Shown: positions 8,503 through 15,048 of the stretch, piece by piece | Numbering within the stretch: the first letter of the stretch is position 1 | How the letters are laid out: every line of letters begins with the position of its first letter | Source: an uncultured Flavobacteriales bacterium | Lineage (GTDB): Bacteria; Bacteroidota; Bacteroidia; Flavobacteriales_E; Vicingaceae | Reading direction: 5' to 3' | DNA length: 64,000 nucleotides | NCBI GenBank assembly: GCA_913056345.1 | Contig: CAJXMH010000002.1 | Coordinates: forward strand, 62,001 to 126,000 | The notes under the pieces: generated by a model | Seen by the model: the letters and a program-made list of their open reading frames with translations, nothing else | The model's database searches: none | Told to the model about the DNA's origin: nothing | Position numbers and translations under genes: made by a program

Positions 8503-8530
8503 TTTGCTCTAAAATAAAGCGTTAACTTTG
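8503..8530 (+). promoter_or_regulatory. Promoter of the toxin-antitoxin pair
   Basis: TAACTTTG at 8523-8530 is an exact TAnnTTTG -7 element. TTTG at 8503-8506 can serve as the -33 element, with a 16-bp spacer, slightly short of the usual 19 or so. The antitoxin ATG is 12 bp downstream. This decides the start in favour of the ATG at 8543 over an in-frame TTG at 8528 that overlaps the -7 element. Confidence 0.6.
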
Positions 8531-8542
8531 GTAGAATCGAAA

Positions 8543-8776
8543 ATGAAAATAATGGATTTACGAGCGGAAAAATTAGACCTTATTCAGTGGATGGCTCAGT
8601 TATCAGATGAAAAAGTCATTCGTAAGATCAAAGCGCTAAGGAACGAAAAGTTAGATGACTCAATTCTAACAGAATCCCACAAATCAATCTTAGAAGAACG
8701 TATAGCCAATCACGAAGCCAATCCTGAAAGCGGCAGTTCTTGGGAAGAAGTGAAGCAAAGAGTTACTTCCAAGTAA
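8543..8776 (+). CDS. Putative antitoxin of a ParE-type toxin-antitoxin module
   Basis: A 77-residue acidic protein, mostly helical, directly upstream of a ParE/RelE-like toxin. The N-terminal part (LRAEKLDLIQWMAQLSDEKVIRKI) is predicted as a helical dimerisation or DNA-contact region. The C-terminal part ends in SSWEEVKQRV, a motif shared by small addiction-module antidotes of the TIGR02574 type, which wrap around the toxin. The start is the ATG at 8543 because the promoter -7 element ends at 8530. The stop TAA is immediately followed by the toxin start codon. Such modules are usually autoregulated by the complex; I found no clear palindrome at the promoter. Confidence 0.72.
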   Translation: MKIMDLRAEKLDLIQWMAQLSDEKVIRKIKALRNEKLDDSILTESHKSILEERIANHEANPESGSSWEEVKQRVTSK

Positions 8777-9067
8777 TTGAAATATAAATTAATAATAAAG
8801 CCAAAGGCAGAAGAAGATCTTCAGTCTGCTTTCGATTGGTATGAAGAGCAACAAAGTGGATTGGGAGATTCTTTTCTCCATCAAATCGACCTAGCATTTG
8901 AGCAAGTTCTAAATAACCCTAAGGTCTTCCAAGAGCGATATAAAGAAGTTCGGATAAACTTTACAGATCAATTTCCTTTTGGAGTACATTACAAAGTAGA
9001 GTCAGAAAAAGTGATTGTATTGGCGATACTTCATAGCGCTAGAGATCCAAAGAACTGGAAAACATAA
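8777..9067 (+). CDS. ParE/RelE-superfamily toxin
   Basis: A 96-residue toxin-fold protein. It opens with KYKLIIKPKAEEDLQSAFDWYEEQQ, typical of ParE/RelE proteins (beta strand, then long helices with AxxDLxxaxdWYe). It ends with the diagnostic VLAILHSARDPKNW, close to the HxxRdpxxW tail of ParE-type toxins, which suggests a gyrase-poisoning rather than mRNA-cleaving type; that assignment is inference. There is no Met in the whole reading frame, so translation must start at the TTG at 8777-8779, directly abutting the antitoxin stop. This implies low, coupled expression from the antitoxin mRNA. Confidence 0.8.
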   Translation: MKYKLIIKPKAEEDLQSAFDWYEEQQSGLGDSFLHQIDLAFEQVLNNPKVFQERYKEVRINFTDQFPFGVHYKVESEKVIVLAILHSARDPKNWKT

Positions 9068-9136: not shown

Positions 9137-10594
9137 TCATTCACTGCTAATAATTTTAAGTTTGCTAATCGACGTAAGTATAGCGTCAGCTAATCTTTGA
9201 TGATAATCAGAGTCTTGCAATTTATTGCGATCGTTTTCATTACTTAAGTATCCACATTCGAGCAAGATGGCGGGACAGTCAGCGGTTTTTAGGAGAAAAA
9301 AAGGAGCAGGTAGGAAATTCAACTTTTCACCCATTGCATTGCTAAAGTTTTGTGCAAACTTTTCAGCAACAAAATAGTTGGGGAGGGTGTCCTCCATCGT
9401 CAATTGGTTAGAGAAGAAAACCTCTATTCCTTGTTTACTCTTGTATTGCTCATTATCGGAATGAATGCTATTGATGTGTAGGTTCAAGTAGAAATCAGCT
9501 TGTGTTGTTTTTTGCAACTTGGCTCGCTCATCCAGTTCCATGAACTGATCTGAAGATCGGCTGAAGATCAATTCAATATTGTAGTCTTTTGCTCTTCGCT
9601 TTATGGCTTCACTGAGCTGAAGTACTAAGTCTTTTTCTTTTAACTCTCCATAGGTAACTCCATGGTCTTTTCCACCATGACCTGGGTCAATTACCACTAC
9701 CATTGGCTTTTCTTTTGGAGCGTATTGAAAAGCGCTGAGGGTAACAAAAGTAGCGGTAGTAAGCGCAAGTAGGTTTGCTTTCCAAAATCTGTTTTGAAGT
9801 GAAACTTTTTTATTCATCATGATCATTCGGTTTTTAAGTTTAGGGAAACTAAAACTGCTCGTTAAATTTTTTGCAGGCTTAGCTTGAGCTAGTTCTAAGA
9901 TTAGGTTTTGGTAGTTTTTAAGGTTTAACTGTTTACTACAAGCCTCATCGGCTAGGTATTCGTGATTTTGTTTGCTCGCTTTTGCAAACAGCCAAATCAG
10001 AGGATTAAACCAAAAGACAATTTTTAGCAGTTCAAAAAATAAGTTATCAAAACTGTGTCCTTGTTTTCGATGAACACTCTCGTGCAATAGGATAGTTTCT
10101 AAGTTGACTGCATTTTGCAGCAATTCTGGATTAATAAATAGATAGTGAAAGAAGGAAAATGCACCTTTTTGTTCTTTCAAAGTGATGAGCGTAAAGCCCG
10201 CCATTTCCTGAGAAGCTTGCCTAGCCGAGCGGAAGAGCGAAGTAAGTTGAAGCATCAAACGCCCCAAAAGTAAAACAGCGCCTAAAAAATAAGTTGCCAA
10301 GATGAGGTTTTGAAGCAAATTTGATTGTGGTTTTACAATCATGCTACTTCGACCTATAGAGCTAGTAGTTGCATTACTTTCAAGAAGCTGTTCGGTTTGA
10401 GTGATGAGATTATGCTCCTGCTTAAGCTCAAGACCAAAATCAAAGTTTATTGCGGGCAAGAGAAGAGCTAAACACAGACTTACCACTAAATAAAAACGGT
10501 TAAACCGAAACCAATTTTCATTTTTCAGCAAGAGTTGATAGCAGGCATAAAAAAGTCCGGTTCCTAAAACGGAGAGCAGCAGGTAACTAATCAT
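9137..10594 (-). CDS. M56 (BlaR1-like) membrane peptidase fused to an N-acetylmuramoyl-L-alanine amidase
   Basis: A 485-residue two-part protein. Residues 1-230 are a BlaR1/MecR1-type M56 metallopeptidase: hydrophobic segments near 2-22, 33-47, 96-113 and 186-203, with HESVH (171-175) and a downstream EYLADEAC supplying zinc ligands. A further membrane segment (about 272-290) leads to a complete Amidase_3 domain with zinc ligands His306 (IDPGHGG), Glu320 (KEKDL) and His373 (NLHINS), and catalytic Glu446 (LLECGYLSN). In BlaR1 this position carries the extracytoplasmic penicillin sensor, so the amidase should be periplasmic. The ATG at 10594 is chosen: it overlaps the blaI stop as ATGATTAG and begins MISYLLLSVLG, where this family usually starts. 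Confidence 0.85.
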   Translation of the reverse strand: MISYLLLSVLGTGLFYACYQLLLKNENWFRFNRFYLVVSLCLALLLPAINFDFGLELKQEHNLITQTEQLLESNATTSSIGRSSMIVKPQSNLLQNLILATYFLGAVLLLGRLMLQLTSLFRSARQASQEMAGFTLITLKEQKGAFSFFHYLFINPELLQNAVNLETILLHESVHRKQGHSFDNLFFELLKIVFWFNPLIWLFAKASKQNHEYLADEACSKQLNLKNYQNLILELAQAKPAKNLTSSFSFPKLKNRMIMMNKKVSLQNRFWKANLLALTTATFVTLSAFQYAPKEKPMVVVIDPGHGGKDHGVTYGELKEKDLVLQLSEAIKRRAKDYNIELIFSRSSDQFMELDERAKLQKTTQADFYLNLHINSIHSDNEQYKSKQGIEVFFSNQLTMEDTLPNYFVAEKFAQNFSNAMGEKLNFLPAPFFLLKTADCPAILLECGYLSNENDRNKLQDSDYHQRLADAILTSISKLKIISSE

Positions 10595-10958
10595 CTTGGT
10601 CGATTTTTTGGTCAATAATTCGCTTGAGTTCTTTGAGCTCTTGCTGACTTAGGTCAGTTTCTTCAGCAAAGAAACTTGCCAATTTAGCCGCTGAGTTATT
10701 GAAGAAGTTTTGGCTTATTTTTTTCAAATGTTCCCCGAAATACTTCCGTTTCTCAAGCAATGGATAGTAGTGTTTGTCTCTTCCTACCTTATCATAGGCA
10801 AGTACATCTTTATCACACAAACGTTTTAGTAAAGTAGAAATGGTGGTGTAAGCCGGCTTAGGATCTTCATAAGCATTTACTATGTCTTTCATGTAGGCCT
10901 TTTTTAGTTCCCACATGTACTTCATTAACTCTAATTCAGCCTCAGTTAATTTTTTCAT
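10587..10958 (-). CDS. BlaI/MecI-family transcriptional repressor
   Basis: A 123-residue winged-helix repressor (LTEAELELMKYMWELKKAYMKDI, then PAYTTISTLLKRLCDKDVL as the recognition region) with the C-terminal dimerisation helix where BlaI proteins are cleaved after BlaR1 activation. It is translationally coupled to the M56-amidase gene through an 8-bp overlap, the usual blaI-blaR1 arrangement. Two inverted repeats of the TACTA/TAGTA class lie at its start, so it almost certainly represses its own operon. Because no beta-lactamase or PBP gene is in the unit, its inducing signal is more likely cell-wall fragments or damage than beta-lactam alone; that is inference. Confidence 0.9.
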   Translation of the reverse strand: MKKLTEAELELMKYMWELKKAYMKDIVNAYEDPKPAYTTISTLLKRLCDKDVLAYDKVGRDKHYYPLLEKRKYFGEHLKKISQNFFNNSAAKLASFFAEETDLSQQELKELKRIIDQKIDQDD

Positions 10959-10994
10959 TACTACAAAAATAGTAATAAAAACTATATTTATAGT
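10958..10994 (-). promoter_or_regulatory. BlaI operators overlapping a leaderless promoter
   Basis: Two perfect dyads. TTACTA-N6-TAGTAA lies at 10958-10975 and ACTATA-TT-TATAGT at 10981-10994. On the minus strand the first reads TTACTATTTTTGTAGTAA and contains an exact -7 element, TATTTTTG (complement of 10964-10971). That element ends 5 bp before the blaI ATG, so transcription should start at or next to the start codon. The first operator covers the -7 element, the start site and the A of the ATG. The second lies just upstream of it. Confidence 0.75.
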
Positions 10995-11000
10995 AATAGG

Positions 11001-12038
11001 CTATTTTTTGTTGAAAGCCCTCATCTCCTCCCAAGTCCAAAAGCGTTTGGGTTCAACACTTTGGTAAGCAGCAGTAAGATACCCCAAAACCTTTGCCTTG
11101 AAGGTCTCTTTTGAAATGCTCGAGGAGTAGATGTCTCGTCGGTAGGGCTGGTCAAAACGGTCGGCTTTACTTAAGTTTTCTGCTTCCAAACGCAATATGG
11201 GGCCGGTGTCCGTGATCTTGTCCACCGACCAATGGTAATTGCTCTTTTCAATTCTATTTAAGCTCTCCGCCAAGGGTTTTAAGTTCACTCTTGGTAGGGT
11301 AGGTCGGCTGGCAATATCAATCCAAGTGGTGTATTTACATTCTAGCTCGTAACGATTATCTTCCAACAAGCTCAAAACCATATCGGTGCCGTAGCTATCT
11401 GAAAAAGCTGCATAATAATGAATTGGTTGAGGTACTTCTTGGACGAGTAACATTAAAGCTTTGTGGATTTCTCTTTTGCCTTTCGTTTTCAAAAGCTTTA
11501 CATCGCTTACTACCCGACTAATTTCCTCTTCCCAATCTGATTTAAATTTCTCTGGTTTTTGTAAAACCTCTGGAAAGGTTTCTAAGAAATAGTCAAACTT
11601 CTGCACGCAAAGCTTCATTTCTTCTTTTTCTCCAAAGGGACGATAAAACTTTTCGCTCTCCACTTTATTCATCCAGCAACAAAGCTTTAAAGCGTATTCA
11701 CTGTTAGTATCCTCAGGTTTATATTCTCGAAAGTCCCCAATCAGAGCCATCTCTCTTAAAACCGGATCATACTTTTTCGCTAATTTAGGATGAAGCAAAG
11801 CAAAAACACCTACAAAACCATCAATGTCGAAATGATTAGCTGAAACATACTGACTTTCTAAGCCGGAAAAGTTAGCTTGTAAGGCATTTAATACAATTTC
11901 GCCAGAAGTGTCTGCCGCAATCTCAGTGTGTTGGTTAGCACCTTTCCAATGTGATAAGACCAAAGCTTTTGGGTGCAAGGCATCAACAATTATGCTCTTG
12001 CTTGCATCCATTTTGGAAAAAGAAATAAATTGTCTCAA
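11001..12038 (-). CDS. Conserved hypothetical protein, DUF6687-like
   Basis: A 345-residue soluble protein with no signal peptide or membrane helix. The N-terminal pattern (QFISFSK...IIVDALHPKALVLSHWKG) and the later SANHFDIDGFVGVFALLHP resemble what I recall of the DUF6687 family; the biochemical role is unknown to me. The HFDIDG box with several Asp/His residues could bind metal, but this is speculation. The frame begins with TTG at 12036-12038; an ATG lies 9 codons in (12011). I keep the TTG because the residues before the ATG match the family N-terminus as I remember it. It lies between the blaI operators and a divergent TMEM175-like gene. Confidence 0.6.
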   Translation of the reverse strand: MRQFISFSKMDASKSIIVDALHPKALVLSHWKGANQHTEIAADTSGEIVLNALQANFSGLESQYVSANHFDIDGFVGVFALLHPKLAKKYDPVLREMALIGDFREYKPEDTNSEYALKLCCWMNKVESEKFYRPFGEKEEMKLCVQKFDYFLETFPEVLQKPEKFKSDWEEEISRVVSDVKLLKTKGKREIHKALMLLVQEVPQPIHYYAAFSDSYGTDMVLSLLEDNRYELECKYTTWIDIASRPTLPRVNLKPLAESLNRIEKSNYHWSVDKITDTGPILRLEAENLSKADRFDQPYRRDIYSSSISKETFKAKVLGYLTAAYQSVEPKRFWTWEEMRAFNKK

Positions 12039-12081
12039 ATTTCTTAGCTTATTAGTATACTTGAATGCAAATTAAGCTTAA

Positions 12082-12873
12082 ATGTTTAGAGATATCTTGA
12101 AAGAAGCAAATTCCCAGTCTAAGTATGGTTTTCGATATCGGGGACTTGAAACTTCAAGGATAGAAAACTTAACAGATGCGGTATTTGCATTTGCGATTAC
12201 CCTTTTGGTTATTGCTTCTGAAGTGCCGAATTCTTATGTAGAGTTACAGGCATCCATGTATGATTTTATTGGCTTTATTTTTTGTGCATTATTGATCTTT
12301 GGGATATGGAACAACCATTTCAACTTTTTTAAGCATTACGGTCTTCAGGATAAGTTGACTAAATCGTTGAATTTTATTTTCATTTTCGTCCTGCTGTTCT
12401 ATATCTATCCGCTCAAATATCTTTTTTCTTTTTTGGGTTCAGCAATTCTAATCAATATTCTGCAAACTTATTCCTATAATTCTCCGGCTATGCAACTAGC
12501 TCTGCAAAAAACCACAGAAGCCAATATGAGCACCGATCAGTGGGCTGATTTGATGGTACGGTTCAGTTTAGGCTTATTTTTTATTTACCTTATTCTTTTT
12601 CTGATGCATTACAATGCGCTTAGAAAAAAGGAAATGCTGAAGTTAAACCAGCTTGAAGTCTTTGAGACAAAAGCATTTATGTCAGCCTTCTTTTACCTGA
12701 TCATTGTGACCCTAGTTAGTATGAGCATAGTTTGGTTAGGAGGCGGAGCTTATGCACCGCATGCAGGATTTAGTTACCTTAGCATTCCGCTTGTTCTTCC
12801 CATTTTAAGGGCTTACCAAAAACGTAAGATCAAACGTAATTATACAGCTTTTTCACAAAAACAAGATTTCTAA
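12082..12873 (+). CDS. TMEM175 (DUF1211)-family membrane protein, putative K+ channel
   Basis: A 263-residue integral membrane protein with about six hydrophobic segments. Near residue 28 it carries RIENLTDAVFAFAITLLVI, corresponding to the signature RxxxFSDxVFAxxxTLL of bacterial TMEM175/DUF1211 proteins, which form leaky K+-selective tetrameric channels. The FSD triplet is altered to LTD here, so the pore-lining helix is present but a position implicated in gating or selectivity differs. A second conserved box, FGIWNNHFNFF, follows near residue 74. The gene ends 21 bp before the S46 peptidase gene on the same strand. The ion specificity is inferred from the family only. Confidence 0.78.
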   Translation: MFRDILKEANSQSKYGFRYRGLETSRIENLTDAVFAFAITLLVIASEVPNSYVELQASMYDFIGFIFCALLIFGIWNNHFNFFKHYGLQDKLTKSLNFIFIFVLLFYIYPLKYLFSFLGSAILINILQTYSYNSPAMQLALQKTTEANMSTDQWADLMVRFSLGLFFIYLILFLMHYNALRKKEMLKLNQLEVFETKAFMSAFFYLIIVTLVSMSIVWLGGGAYAPHAGFSYLSIPLVLPILRAYQKRKIKRNYTAFSQKQDF

Positions 12874-12894
12874 TTTTTAATATAAAAGATCATC

Positions 12895-15048
12895 ATGAAA
12901 AAAGGAATTTCTATCCTATTAAGTCTTTTTTTAAGTCTTTCACTAGTAAAAGCCAAAGAGGGCATGTGGTTGCCCATGTTATTAAAGAGCTTGAACGAAA
13001 GTGAAATGCAAAGTATGGGTCTGAAGCTAAGTGCAGAGGATATTTACAGTGTCAATCAATCTAGTTTAAAAGATGCTGTAATTTCCTTTGGTGGTTTTTG
13101 CACCGGAGAAGTGATCTCTGATCAGGGATTGATCCTGACCAATCATCACTGTGGTTATGGTCAGATCCAATACCACAGTTCGGTTGAAAAGGATTATTTG
13201 ACCAATGGTTATTGGGCGATGAAGCCTGCTGACGAACTCCAAAATCCCGGATTAACAGCTACTTTTATTGTTCGAATGGAGGATGTCACAGCGGCTGTTC
13301 TTGAAGAATTGAGTGATACCTTAACTAAAAAAGAGCGTGAAGCGGAGATCAGAAGTCGAATCAAGAGCATTACAGAAGGAGCAGTAGAAGGGACTCATTA
13401 TGAGGCTTACATCCGACCCTTTTTCTATGGCAATGAATATTATATGTTCATTACCGAGACCTTTAAAGATATTCGCTTGGTTGGTGCACCACCTTCTTCA
13501 ATCGGTAAGTTTGGCGGAGATACCGATAATTGGATGTGGCCCCGACATACGGGAGATTTTTCTTTGTTCAGAATCTACGCCGATAAGGATAATAAACCTG
13601 CTGAGTACAGCGAAGACAATGTGCCTTACAAGCCCAAGCATTATTTTCCCATTTCTATGGAAGGGGTAAAGAAGGGCGACTTTACTATGGTATATGGATT
13701 TCCCGGAAGGACACAAGAATACCTATCCTCATACGCCATAGAGCAGATTAAAGAAGAGATCAATCCCGCTCGAATTAGCATTAGAGAAAAGGCATTAGAA
13801 ATAATGGATAAGCATATGAAGGCTGATGATACGGTTAGAATTAAGTATGCCTCAAAGTACGCTAGAGTGAGTAACTATTGGAAAAAGTGGATGGGAGAAA
13901 ACAGAGGGTTGCAGAAAGCAGATGCCATAGAAATGAAGCAAAAACAAGAAAGGGCTTTTCTTGAAGCCACTAAAGGCATGGAGCAATACCAAGGTTTGAT
14001 GCCTGCCTTTGAAAAACGTTATCAGGCTATAGAGCCTTACGCGCAAGCAAGAAGTTATTTTGTGGAAATTCCTTACCGTAAACTTGAAATGATTGGACTA
14101 GCGGCAAGTTTTAGAAAGGCGGTTGAAAACATTAAAGACAAAGAGATGAGCGATGAAGCCAAACAGGCTGAAGTAGACCGTTTGAAGAAAAAGGTGAAGG
14201 CACACTTTAAAAATTTTGATTATGCCACTGATCTTGAGTTAGCTGTTGAGCTATTGAAGAAATACGTAAAAGAGCTAGATGATGCTTTTGTACCCAAAGA
14301 CTTGCTTAAAAACAAGGATAACATTGAAGGCTTTGTAACGAAGGTTTACGAAAACTCTATTTTCAACAAAGAAGAAGAGTTGGATTTCTTTTTAAAGAAA
14401 TTTAACCGTGGTAGTGCCAATAGGGTTAAGACCGATCAGGGATGGAAACTGATGAAGGGCTTTTACGATATGTACTATAATGAGATTAGACCTGAATACA
14501 GCGATTTATCCAGCGAGATCGACTCTTTGAGTAAGCTTTATGTAAAAGGTTTACGAGATCATGTAGAGGGGAGATATTATCCTGATGCCAACAGTACTTT
14601 GCGCCTAGCTTATGGCGAAGTAGATGACTACGAACCTGCTGATGGGGTAGAGTATACGCACTTTACCACCACTGAGGGCATACTTCAAAAATACGACCCA
14701 TCTAATGTTGACTTTGACCTACCTGACCGTCTAGTAGAATTGATCAAAGCAGGAGATTATGGTCAATACAAAGATGATGAAGGACATATGCCTGTTTGTT
14801 TTACAGCCTCCAATCACACTACAGGTGGTAATTCAGGTAGCCCCGTGCTTAATGCTAAAGGGGAATTGATTGGTTTGAACTTTGACCGAAATTGGGAAGG
14901 TACCATGAGTGATATCACTTATGATATTGACCAATGCCGCAACATTTCTGTGGATATTCGCTATGTACTTTTTGTAGTAGATAAATTTGCCGGAGCAGGG
15001 CATTTGGTTAAGGAAATGAAATTGGTACATAATTCACAAGAAAAATAA
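12895..15048 (+). CDS. S46-family dipeptidyl-peptidase, predicted acidic (DPP11-type) specificity
   Basis: A 717-residue exported serine peptidase with a Sec signal (about residues 1-20, ending SLVKA) and the mature start KEGMWLPM typical of S46. The triad is visible: His85 in TNHHCGYG, an Asp in the GGDTDNWMWPRHTGDF region, and Ser647 in GGNSGSP. Eighteen residues after the Ser lies Arg665 (FDRNWE). In Porphyromonas DPP11 an Arg at this spacing selects Asp/Glu at P1, whereas DPP7 has Gly. It therefore probably removes Xaa-Asp/Glu dipeptides in the periplasm. A second S46 gene at 51659-53806 has Gly at this position. It is followed by the AMP nucleosidase gene after 5 bp. Confidence 0.9.
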   Translation: MKKGISILLSLFLSLSLVKAKEGMWLPMLLKSLNESEMQSMGLKLSAEDIYSVNQSSLKDAVISFGGFCTGEVISDQGLILTNHHCGYGQIQYHSSVEKDYLTNGYWAMKPADELQNPGLTATFIVRMEDVTAAVLEELSDTLTKKEREAEIRSRIKSITEGAVEGTHYEAYIRPFFYGNEYYMFITETFKDIRLVGAPPSSIGKFGGDTDNWMWPRHTGDFSLFRIYADKDNKPAEYSEDNVPYKPKHYFPISMEGVKKGDFTMVYGFPGRTQEYLSSYAIEQIKEEINPARISIREKALEIMDKHMKADDTVRIKYASKYARVSNYWKKWMGENRGLQKADAIEMKQKQERAFLEATKGMEQYQGLMPAFEKRYQAIEPYAQARSYFVEIPYRKLEMIGLAASFRKAVENIKDKEMSDEAKQAEVDRLKKKVKAHFKNFDYATDLELAVELLKKYVKELDDAFVPKDLLKNKDNIEGFVTKVYENSIFNKEEELDFFLKKFNRGSANRVKTDQGWKLMKGFYDMYYNEIRPEYSDLSSEIDSLSKLYVKGLRDHVEGRYYPDANSTLRLAYGEVDDYEPADGVEYTHFTTTEGILQKYDPSNVDFDLPDRLVELIKAGDYGQYKDDEGHMPVCFTASNHTTGGNSGSPVLNAKGELIGLNFDRNWEGTMSDITYDIDQCRNISVDIRYVLFVVDKFAGAGHLVKEMKLVHNSQEK

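Follow-up and report, generated by a model that had tools for sequence, protein, structure and literature searches.

The window analysed here is the whole 64,000-nucleotide stretch G000:C2:62001-126000, from an assembly of 2.9 Mb in 66 contigs that is 99.7% complete. On its minus strand lies a two-gene operon encoding a BlaI/MecI-type repressor and an M56 metallopeptidase joined to a wall amidase. Its features are as follows.

9137..10594 (-): fusion gene M56-Amidase_3, 485 aa, supported by Pfam and by seven homologues sharing the join
10587..10958 (-): blaI, BlaI/MecI-type repressor, 123 aa (Penicillinase_R, E=9.4e-29)
9818..10114 (-): Peptidase_M56 match, residues 161-259 (Pfam, conservation, Foldseek)
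9851..9856 (-): equivalent of the autocleavage site, S247/F248, by alignment with BlaR1 Ser283/Phe284
9731..9790 (-): predicted fourth transmembrane helix, residues 269-288, the canonical TM4 of BlaR1 (AlphaFold helix, charge pattern)
9164..9697 (-): Amidase_3 domain, residues 300-477, of CwlV/CwlD/LytH type (Pfam, domain model, fold matches)
10959..10974: proximal candidate BlaI box, TACTATTTTTGTAGTA, abutting the blaI start codon
within 10980..10995: distal candidate BlaI box, palindrome ACTATAAATATAGT, 21 bp from the proximal box

The open reading frame of the fusion gene is uninterrupted; its length is counted from the ATG at 10594, and an alternative TTG start 21 nt upstream would give 492 aa. 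Both Peptidase_M56 (E=2.4e-15) and Amidase_3 (E=1.6e-38) scored above the curated Pfam cut-offs, which bears out the claim of the first-pass annotation that an M56 peptidase and a complete amidase share one protein. The adjoining repressor gene, also called there, is its upstream neighbour on the same strand, and the two genes share 8 nt. BlaI has a winged-helix domain followed by C-terminal helices, with a Phe aligned to the P1' position of MecI/BlaI cleavage. A Pfam scan of the window genes found no beta-lactamase or PBP2a gene adjoining the operon, and Pfam found no transpeptidase (penicillin-binding) domain in the fusion protein, where Amidase_3 stands at that place.

Immediately upstream of blaI, and in the same orientation, is a DUF6687 gene, the blaI boxes occupying the short gap after its stop codon, and an S46 peptidase gene lies further on (both within 11001-15048). 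The same two genes flank the fusion operon of a second genome, G040 (locus L171), and are not seen beside it in G607 or L035. On the plus strand, the neighbourhood also holds a two-gene toxin-antitoxin pair beside the fusion (8528-9067; Unstab_antitox, PF09720, and ParE_toxin, PF05016) and a TMEM175-like potassium channel family protein (12082-12873; PF06736).

Homologues of the fusion and their M56 relatives

Homologues were sought in the order, the class and the phylum, with one genome per species, and among M56 proteins already collected. Seven further proteins carry M56 followed by Amidase_3 (G040, L035, G607, G267, G314, G758 and G377). They come from four families and share 25-34% identity with the window protein; the G040 fusion belongs to the family of the window genome and the L035 fusion to Psychroserpens. 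Because all seven have the identical join, the fusion is no artefact, and a sequencing or assembly error linking two genes between residues 240 and 290 is ruled out. Two of the seven (G758 and G314) continue, on reading their sequences, into TonB- or Plug-like tails. The fusion is rare, occurring in at least 5 of the 395 genomes of the class sample (G000, G040, G267, G314 and G377), a lower bound owing to the E-value cut. Plasmid records held no full-length relative of the fusion protein, and no description of an M56-Amidase_3 protein was found in the open-access literature searched. The parts of this combination of a BlaR1 protease with a wall amidase are known, and most likely they work in known ways.

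Thirty-six alignment columns are invariant across the eight fusions. In the M56 half these include H171, E172 and H175 of the HESVH motif (residues 171-175, zinc and catalytic Glu), the third ligand E212 and D216 of the ExxxD motif, F248 and R256; in the amidase half they include D303, H306, E320, H373 and E446. The M56 motifs and the amidase's zinc ligands and catalytic Glu (H306/E320/H373/E446) are thus all in place, as annotated on the first pass. Since both active sites, F248 and R256 are preserved at 25-34% identity, both enzymes are under selection.

How special is the association with BlaI? The fusion is paired with BlaI in 7/7 testable cases, so the pairing proposed in the first-pass annotation stands, but it says nothing special about the amidase: BlaI lies directly upstream at 133/140 testable M56 loci, and BlaI pairing is therefore the general rule. 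One Bacteroidota-type M56 protein without BlaI (L055) sits on a contig labelled Candidatus Aminicenantes, by transfer or binning error. The earlier description of a BlaR1 whose sensor has been replaced is misleading, because a Pfam scan found a penicillin-binding sensor in none of 89 Bacteroidota M56 proteins; it is a contrast with Staphylococcus and not a local event. The C-terminal modules among the 89 proteins were TonB_C (25), Plug (16), Amidase_3 (5), MORN_2 (4) and M23 (3), three further M56-Amidase_3 fusions lying outside this set. Other M56 proteins have TonB_C or Plug modules at this position, which shows that the C-terminal module is easily swapped and need not be the sensor. No paper found in our literature search names the signal of the Bacteroidota BlaI-M56 pairs that lack a penicillin sensor.

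A single origin of all amidase fusions was also considered. The M56 tree needs 4 changes to account for the eight fusions and is weakly against placing them in one clade (p-AU 0.034, lnL 34.5 lower), whereas the amidase tree, built on a short alignment, allows it (p-AU 0.32). Grouping the window fusion with those of G040, L035 and G607 was not rejected (p-AU 0.40). On these trees, the window and G040 fusions may share a lineage with the two Flavobacteriaceae-type fusions, other lineages are possible for the f35 group and for G377, and the fusion may have arisen repeatedly.

A BlaR1 core carrying a CwlD/LytH-like amidase

A profile built from the 89 Bacteroidota M56 proteins and run against the PDB retrieved BlaR1 (E=1.7e-7), and its alignment matched ...LSHS/F284NGKKSLLKRR294... 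of BlaR1 with ...LTSS/F248SFPKLKNR256... of the fusion protein. In BlaR1, autocleavage occurs at the Ser283-Phe284 bond, and Arg294 pairs with Asp246 across a domain-swapped dimer (PMC9834060); D246 aligns with D216 of the fusion. AlphaFold modelled the M56 half with a pLDDT of ~94 over most of its length and placed helices at residues 2-23, 29-48, 93-124 and 269-288, and Foldseek returned five significant matches, all to BlaR1 (8exp, 8exq, 8exs, 8ext and 8exr). The membrane segment that the first-pass annotation had called extra (residues 269-288) is therefore the ordinary fourth transmembrane helix of BlaR1.

BlaR1 has its protease directed to the cytosol and both chain termini outside (PMC9834060). 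For the fusion protein, too, four transmembrane helices with N and C termini outside are predicted. The equivalent of EL1 (residues 49-92) is negative in all eight fusions (net -2 to -7) and the loop before TM4 carries +5 to +9, a charge pattern that argues for an amidase outside the membrane. Loop charges and AlphaFold helices thus predict that the amidase is not cytoplasmic, in keeping with the topology the first-pass reading called for. A tether of only ~8 residues joins the amidase to TM4. H180 (window 10055-10057), invariant in the eight fusions, sits where BlaR1 has D210, a residue nearly strictly conserved among BlaR1 proteins; the invariant His is a feature of the Bacteroidota M56 proteins sampled.

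In the full-length AlphaFold model most of the amidase half had a pLDDT <50 and was unusable, because only one other alignment row contained the amidase. Modelled alone (197 aa), the domain reached a pTM of 0.80, with 5emi, 1jwq and 4rn7 as top structural matches; among solved structures it is closest to Nostoc AmiC2, CwlV and further enzymes of the CwlD/LytH-like kind. It probably acts as an N-acetylmuramoyl-L-alanine amidase. The genome's other Amidase_3 protein, which stands alone, has a domain of 229 aa. At ~180-190 aa, the fused domain is too short to hold the autoinhibitory-helix insertion of AmiA, AmiB and AmiC; it shares their catalytic fold and lacks their self-blocking helix. Amidases that lack this helix either need no other protein for activity (CwlV, AmiC2) or have a partner that licenses them, as GerS does CwlD in C. 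difficile and the membrane protein ActH does LytH in S. aureus (PMC8496864). By analogy, a membrane protease fused to a helix-less amidase is compatible with licensing, although the licensing partner is a separate protein in those systems and in the window it would be the signalling protease to which the amidase is fused, accompanied by a repressor. Standalone amidases akin to the fused domain occur in G031 (L109) and G034 (L111), each beside a GH16-like secreted glycosidase. That of G031 (197 aa) has an N-terminal transmembrane or signal segment and a tether of about the same length, and groups close to the fused domains in a tree with weak support.

BlaI boxes and a sister operon

The interval described in the first pass ends at 10994 and takes in two palindromes at 10959-10995 that went unmentioned there. 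Contig C4 of the window genome carries another blaI operon, in which M56 is fused to an M23 endopeptidase of LytM type:

G000:C4:141301-143000 (-): M56-M23 operon (L002), HxxxD and HxH motifs present

It is flanked by a pyrophosphatase-like gene and a photolyase-like gene. M56-M23 fusions occur in ~11/395 class genomes. A survey of M23 proteins, <1% of which have another catalytic domain, mentions the combination, and a role for M56 in peptidoglycan cleavage is not shown in these proteins (PMC9662197). They resemble the window protein in joining an M56 core to a peptidoglycan hydrolase, in having BlaI upstream and in sharing the same box (in its own genome and in G029), and differ in carrying an M23 endopeptidase instead of an amidase.

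The sequence TACTACATTTGTAGTA stands upstream of blaI in G040, G607 and L035, and the M23 operon of the window genome has the box TACTACATTTGTAGTC and, at a distance of 20 bp, another box. The exact motif TACAttTGTA is present at all four of these loci, and both window boxes are degenerate versions of it. This core equals TACANNTGTA, the motif given for CopY, BlaI and MecI; it is required for CopY to bind but does not suffice (PMC7253601). BlaI proteins with a TACAttTGTA box have PAYTT[IV]ST in common in the DNA-binding domain; the G267 BlaI, with PHSNTVAT, has the palindrome AACTAATTTATTAGTT instead, and for the f35 family and G377 the search gave a different box or none. BlaI probably binds the boxes at 10959-10995, and the amidase and M23 operons may cross-talk.

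We sought BlaI targets by pattern search with ≤3 mismatches, a ceiling that weaker targets could therefore escape. Matches showed no excess over a reversed-pattern control (46 vs 102), and a large BlaI regulon was rejected on this ground. Only two box pairs were listed genome-wide, C2:72959/72980 and C4:143029/143009, both at blaI promoters; the one other good palindrome, C17:52133, lies inside an ABC ATPase gene. In G040 (3.4 Mb) and G607 (4.5 Mb) the genome's single exact TACTACATTTGTAGTA precedes the M56-Amidase_3 operon, and in G029 the single box with ≤1 mismatch precedes the M56-M23 operon; a simple calculation gives an expectation of ~0.002 for an exact 16-mer in a genome of this kind. 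Since the only close box pairs found are at the two M56-hydrolase operons, the hydrolase itself looks like the regulated product, and the hydrolase fusions are probably the main product that these BlaI repressors control.

A wall amidase in a BlaR1-type circuit

The fusion is a variant of the BlaR1-BlaI device. With BlaR1/MecR1 and BlaI/MecI of Staphylococcus and Bacillus it shares the M56 gluzincin core, four predicted transmembrane helices, the active-site ExxxD with its Arg, the autocleavage Phe, an outer module, BlaI as operon partner, an operator resembling TACANNTGTA and the P1' Phe in BlaI. It differs in having an amidase where BlaR1 has a penicillin-binding sensor like a class D beta-lactamase, in the invariant H180 in place of D210, and in its targets: the close box pairs found in the fusion genome (≤3 mismatches) are confined to M56-hydrolase operons, and the searches revealed no beta-lactamase target.

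What would such a protein do? The reading we prefer, though tentatively, is an autorepressed protein that is signal transducer and effector at once, in which the tethered amidase would report the state of the wall to M56, which would destroy BlaI. It takes up the first-pass proposal that peptidoglycan binding or cleavage by the amidase may drive BlaI release. BlaI on the two boxes before its start codon would repress the two-gene operon. The M56-amidase would sit in the inner membrane as a dimer like BlaR1, its protease site toward the cytosol, and the amidase, ~8 residues above the membrane's outer face, would have access to peptidoglycan that is nascent or close to the membrane. The condition of this peptidoglycan (substrate bound, product bound or empty) would shift the amidase relative to EL1 and TM4, much as beta-lactam acylation does in BlaR1. 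The autocleavage loop would then leave the M56 site and BlaI would be cut at its conserved Phe, giving more repressor and more amidase, with the hydrolase as regulated product. Dimerisation, the wall signal with its direction, and BlaI cleavage are steps that we infer. In favour of this reading, the outside sensor of BlaR1 moves relative to the membrane and alters the protease site; how the signal passes the membrane is described as an open question there (PMC9834060). The restriction of close box pairs to the two M56-hydrolase operons, and the second wall hydrolase fused to M56 in the same genome, also speak for it. A more speculative extension, which we hold unlikely, is a self-metering wall hydrolase in which substrate availability would set the amount of enzyme without a kinase or diffusible signal, M56-Amidase_3 and M56-M23 with their matching boxes forming a paired controller of wall turnover.

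Alternatively, the amidase could be output only. M56 would sense the membrane state, an EL1 ligand or cytosolic peptidoglycan fragments, and autocleavage at S247/F248 would free a TM4-anchored amidase (residues 248-485) to act as a membrane-bound wall enzyme. The invariant cleavage-site Phe precedes TM4, so that autocleavage would leave TM4 plus amidase, the very layout of the standalone signal-anchored amidase of G031; the fusion operon is the only strong BlaI target, and the M23 of the sister operon is also an enzyme, so a hydrolase as output would cover both. An output enzyme, however, needs no shared chain with its protease, retention or repeated gain of the join across several lineages points to a mechanical connection, and the BlaR1 dimer holds cleaved and uncleaved loops alike (PMC9834060). 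We consider this route unlikely, if still a serious competitor. It is quite improbable that M56-BlaI operons merely gain C-terminal modules without common logic, the amidase having no regulatory link to M56: the variety of modules among the 89 proteins (TonB_C, Plug, Amidase_3, MORN_2, M23) would fit such accretion, but both active sites are deeply conserved and two different wall hydrolases are recurrently fused at the same place.

Two further explanations assign the amidase a different part in signalling. Stem peptides freed by the amidase might be imported, trimmed and used as a BlaI coactivator. Direct binding of a gamma-D-Glu-diamino acid dipeptide to BlaI/MecI has been reported in Bacillus and Staphylococcus (PMC3305447), and the amidase would yield the precursor stem peptide while the paired M23 enzyme may cut cross-links. 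Such a loop requires import and an L-Ala-removing step, though, and purified S. aureus BlaR1 cleaves BlaI alone with no other component (PMC9834060), which leaves it a slim chance. Very improbable indeed is an amidase degenerated into a binding-only sensor, on the analogy of the BlaR1 sensor, which turns over very slowly and resembles class D beta-lactamases (PMC7593790), for its three zinc ligands and catalytic Glu are invariant in the eight fusions.

Bacteroidota commonly have BlaI-M56 pairs that lack a penicillin sensor. The fusion has as its outer module an enzyme whose substrate is known; the signal can therefore be guessed, and the guess tested by active-site point mutations. These observations suggest that the BlaR1-BlaI device may serve wall sensing itself, and that beta-lactam sensing may be one specialised use of it.
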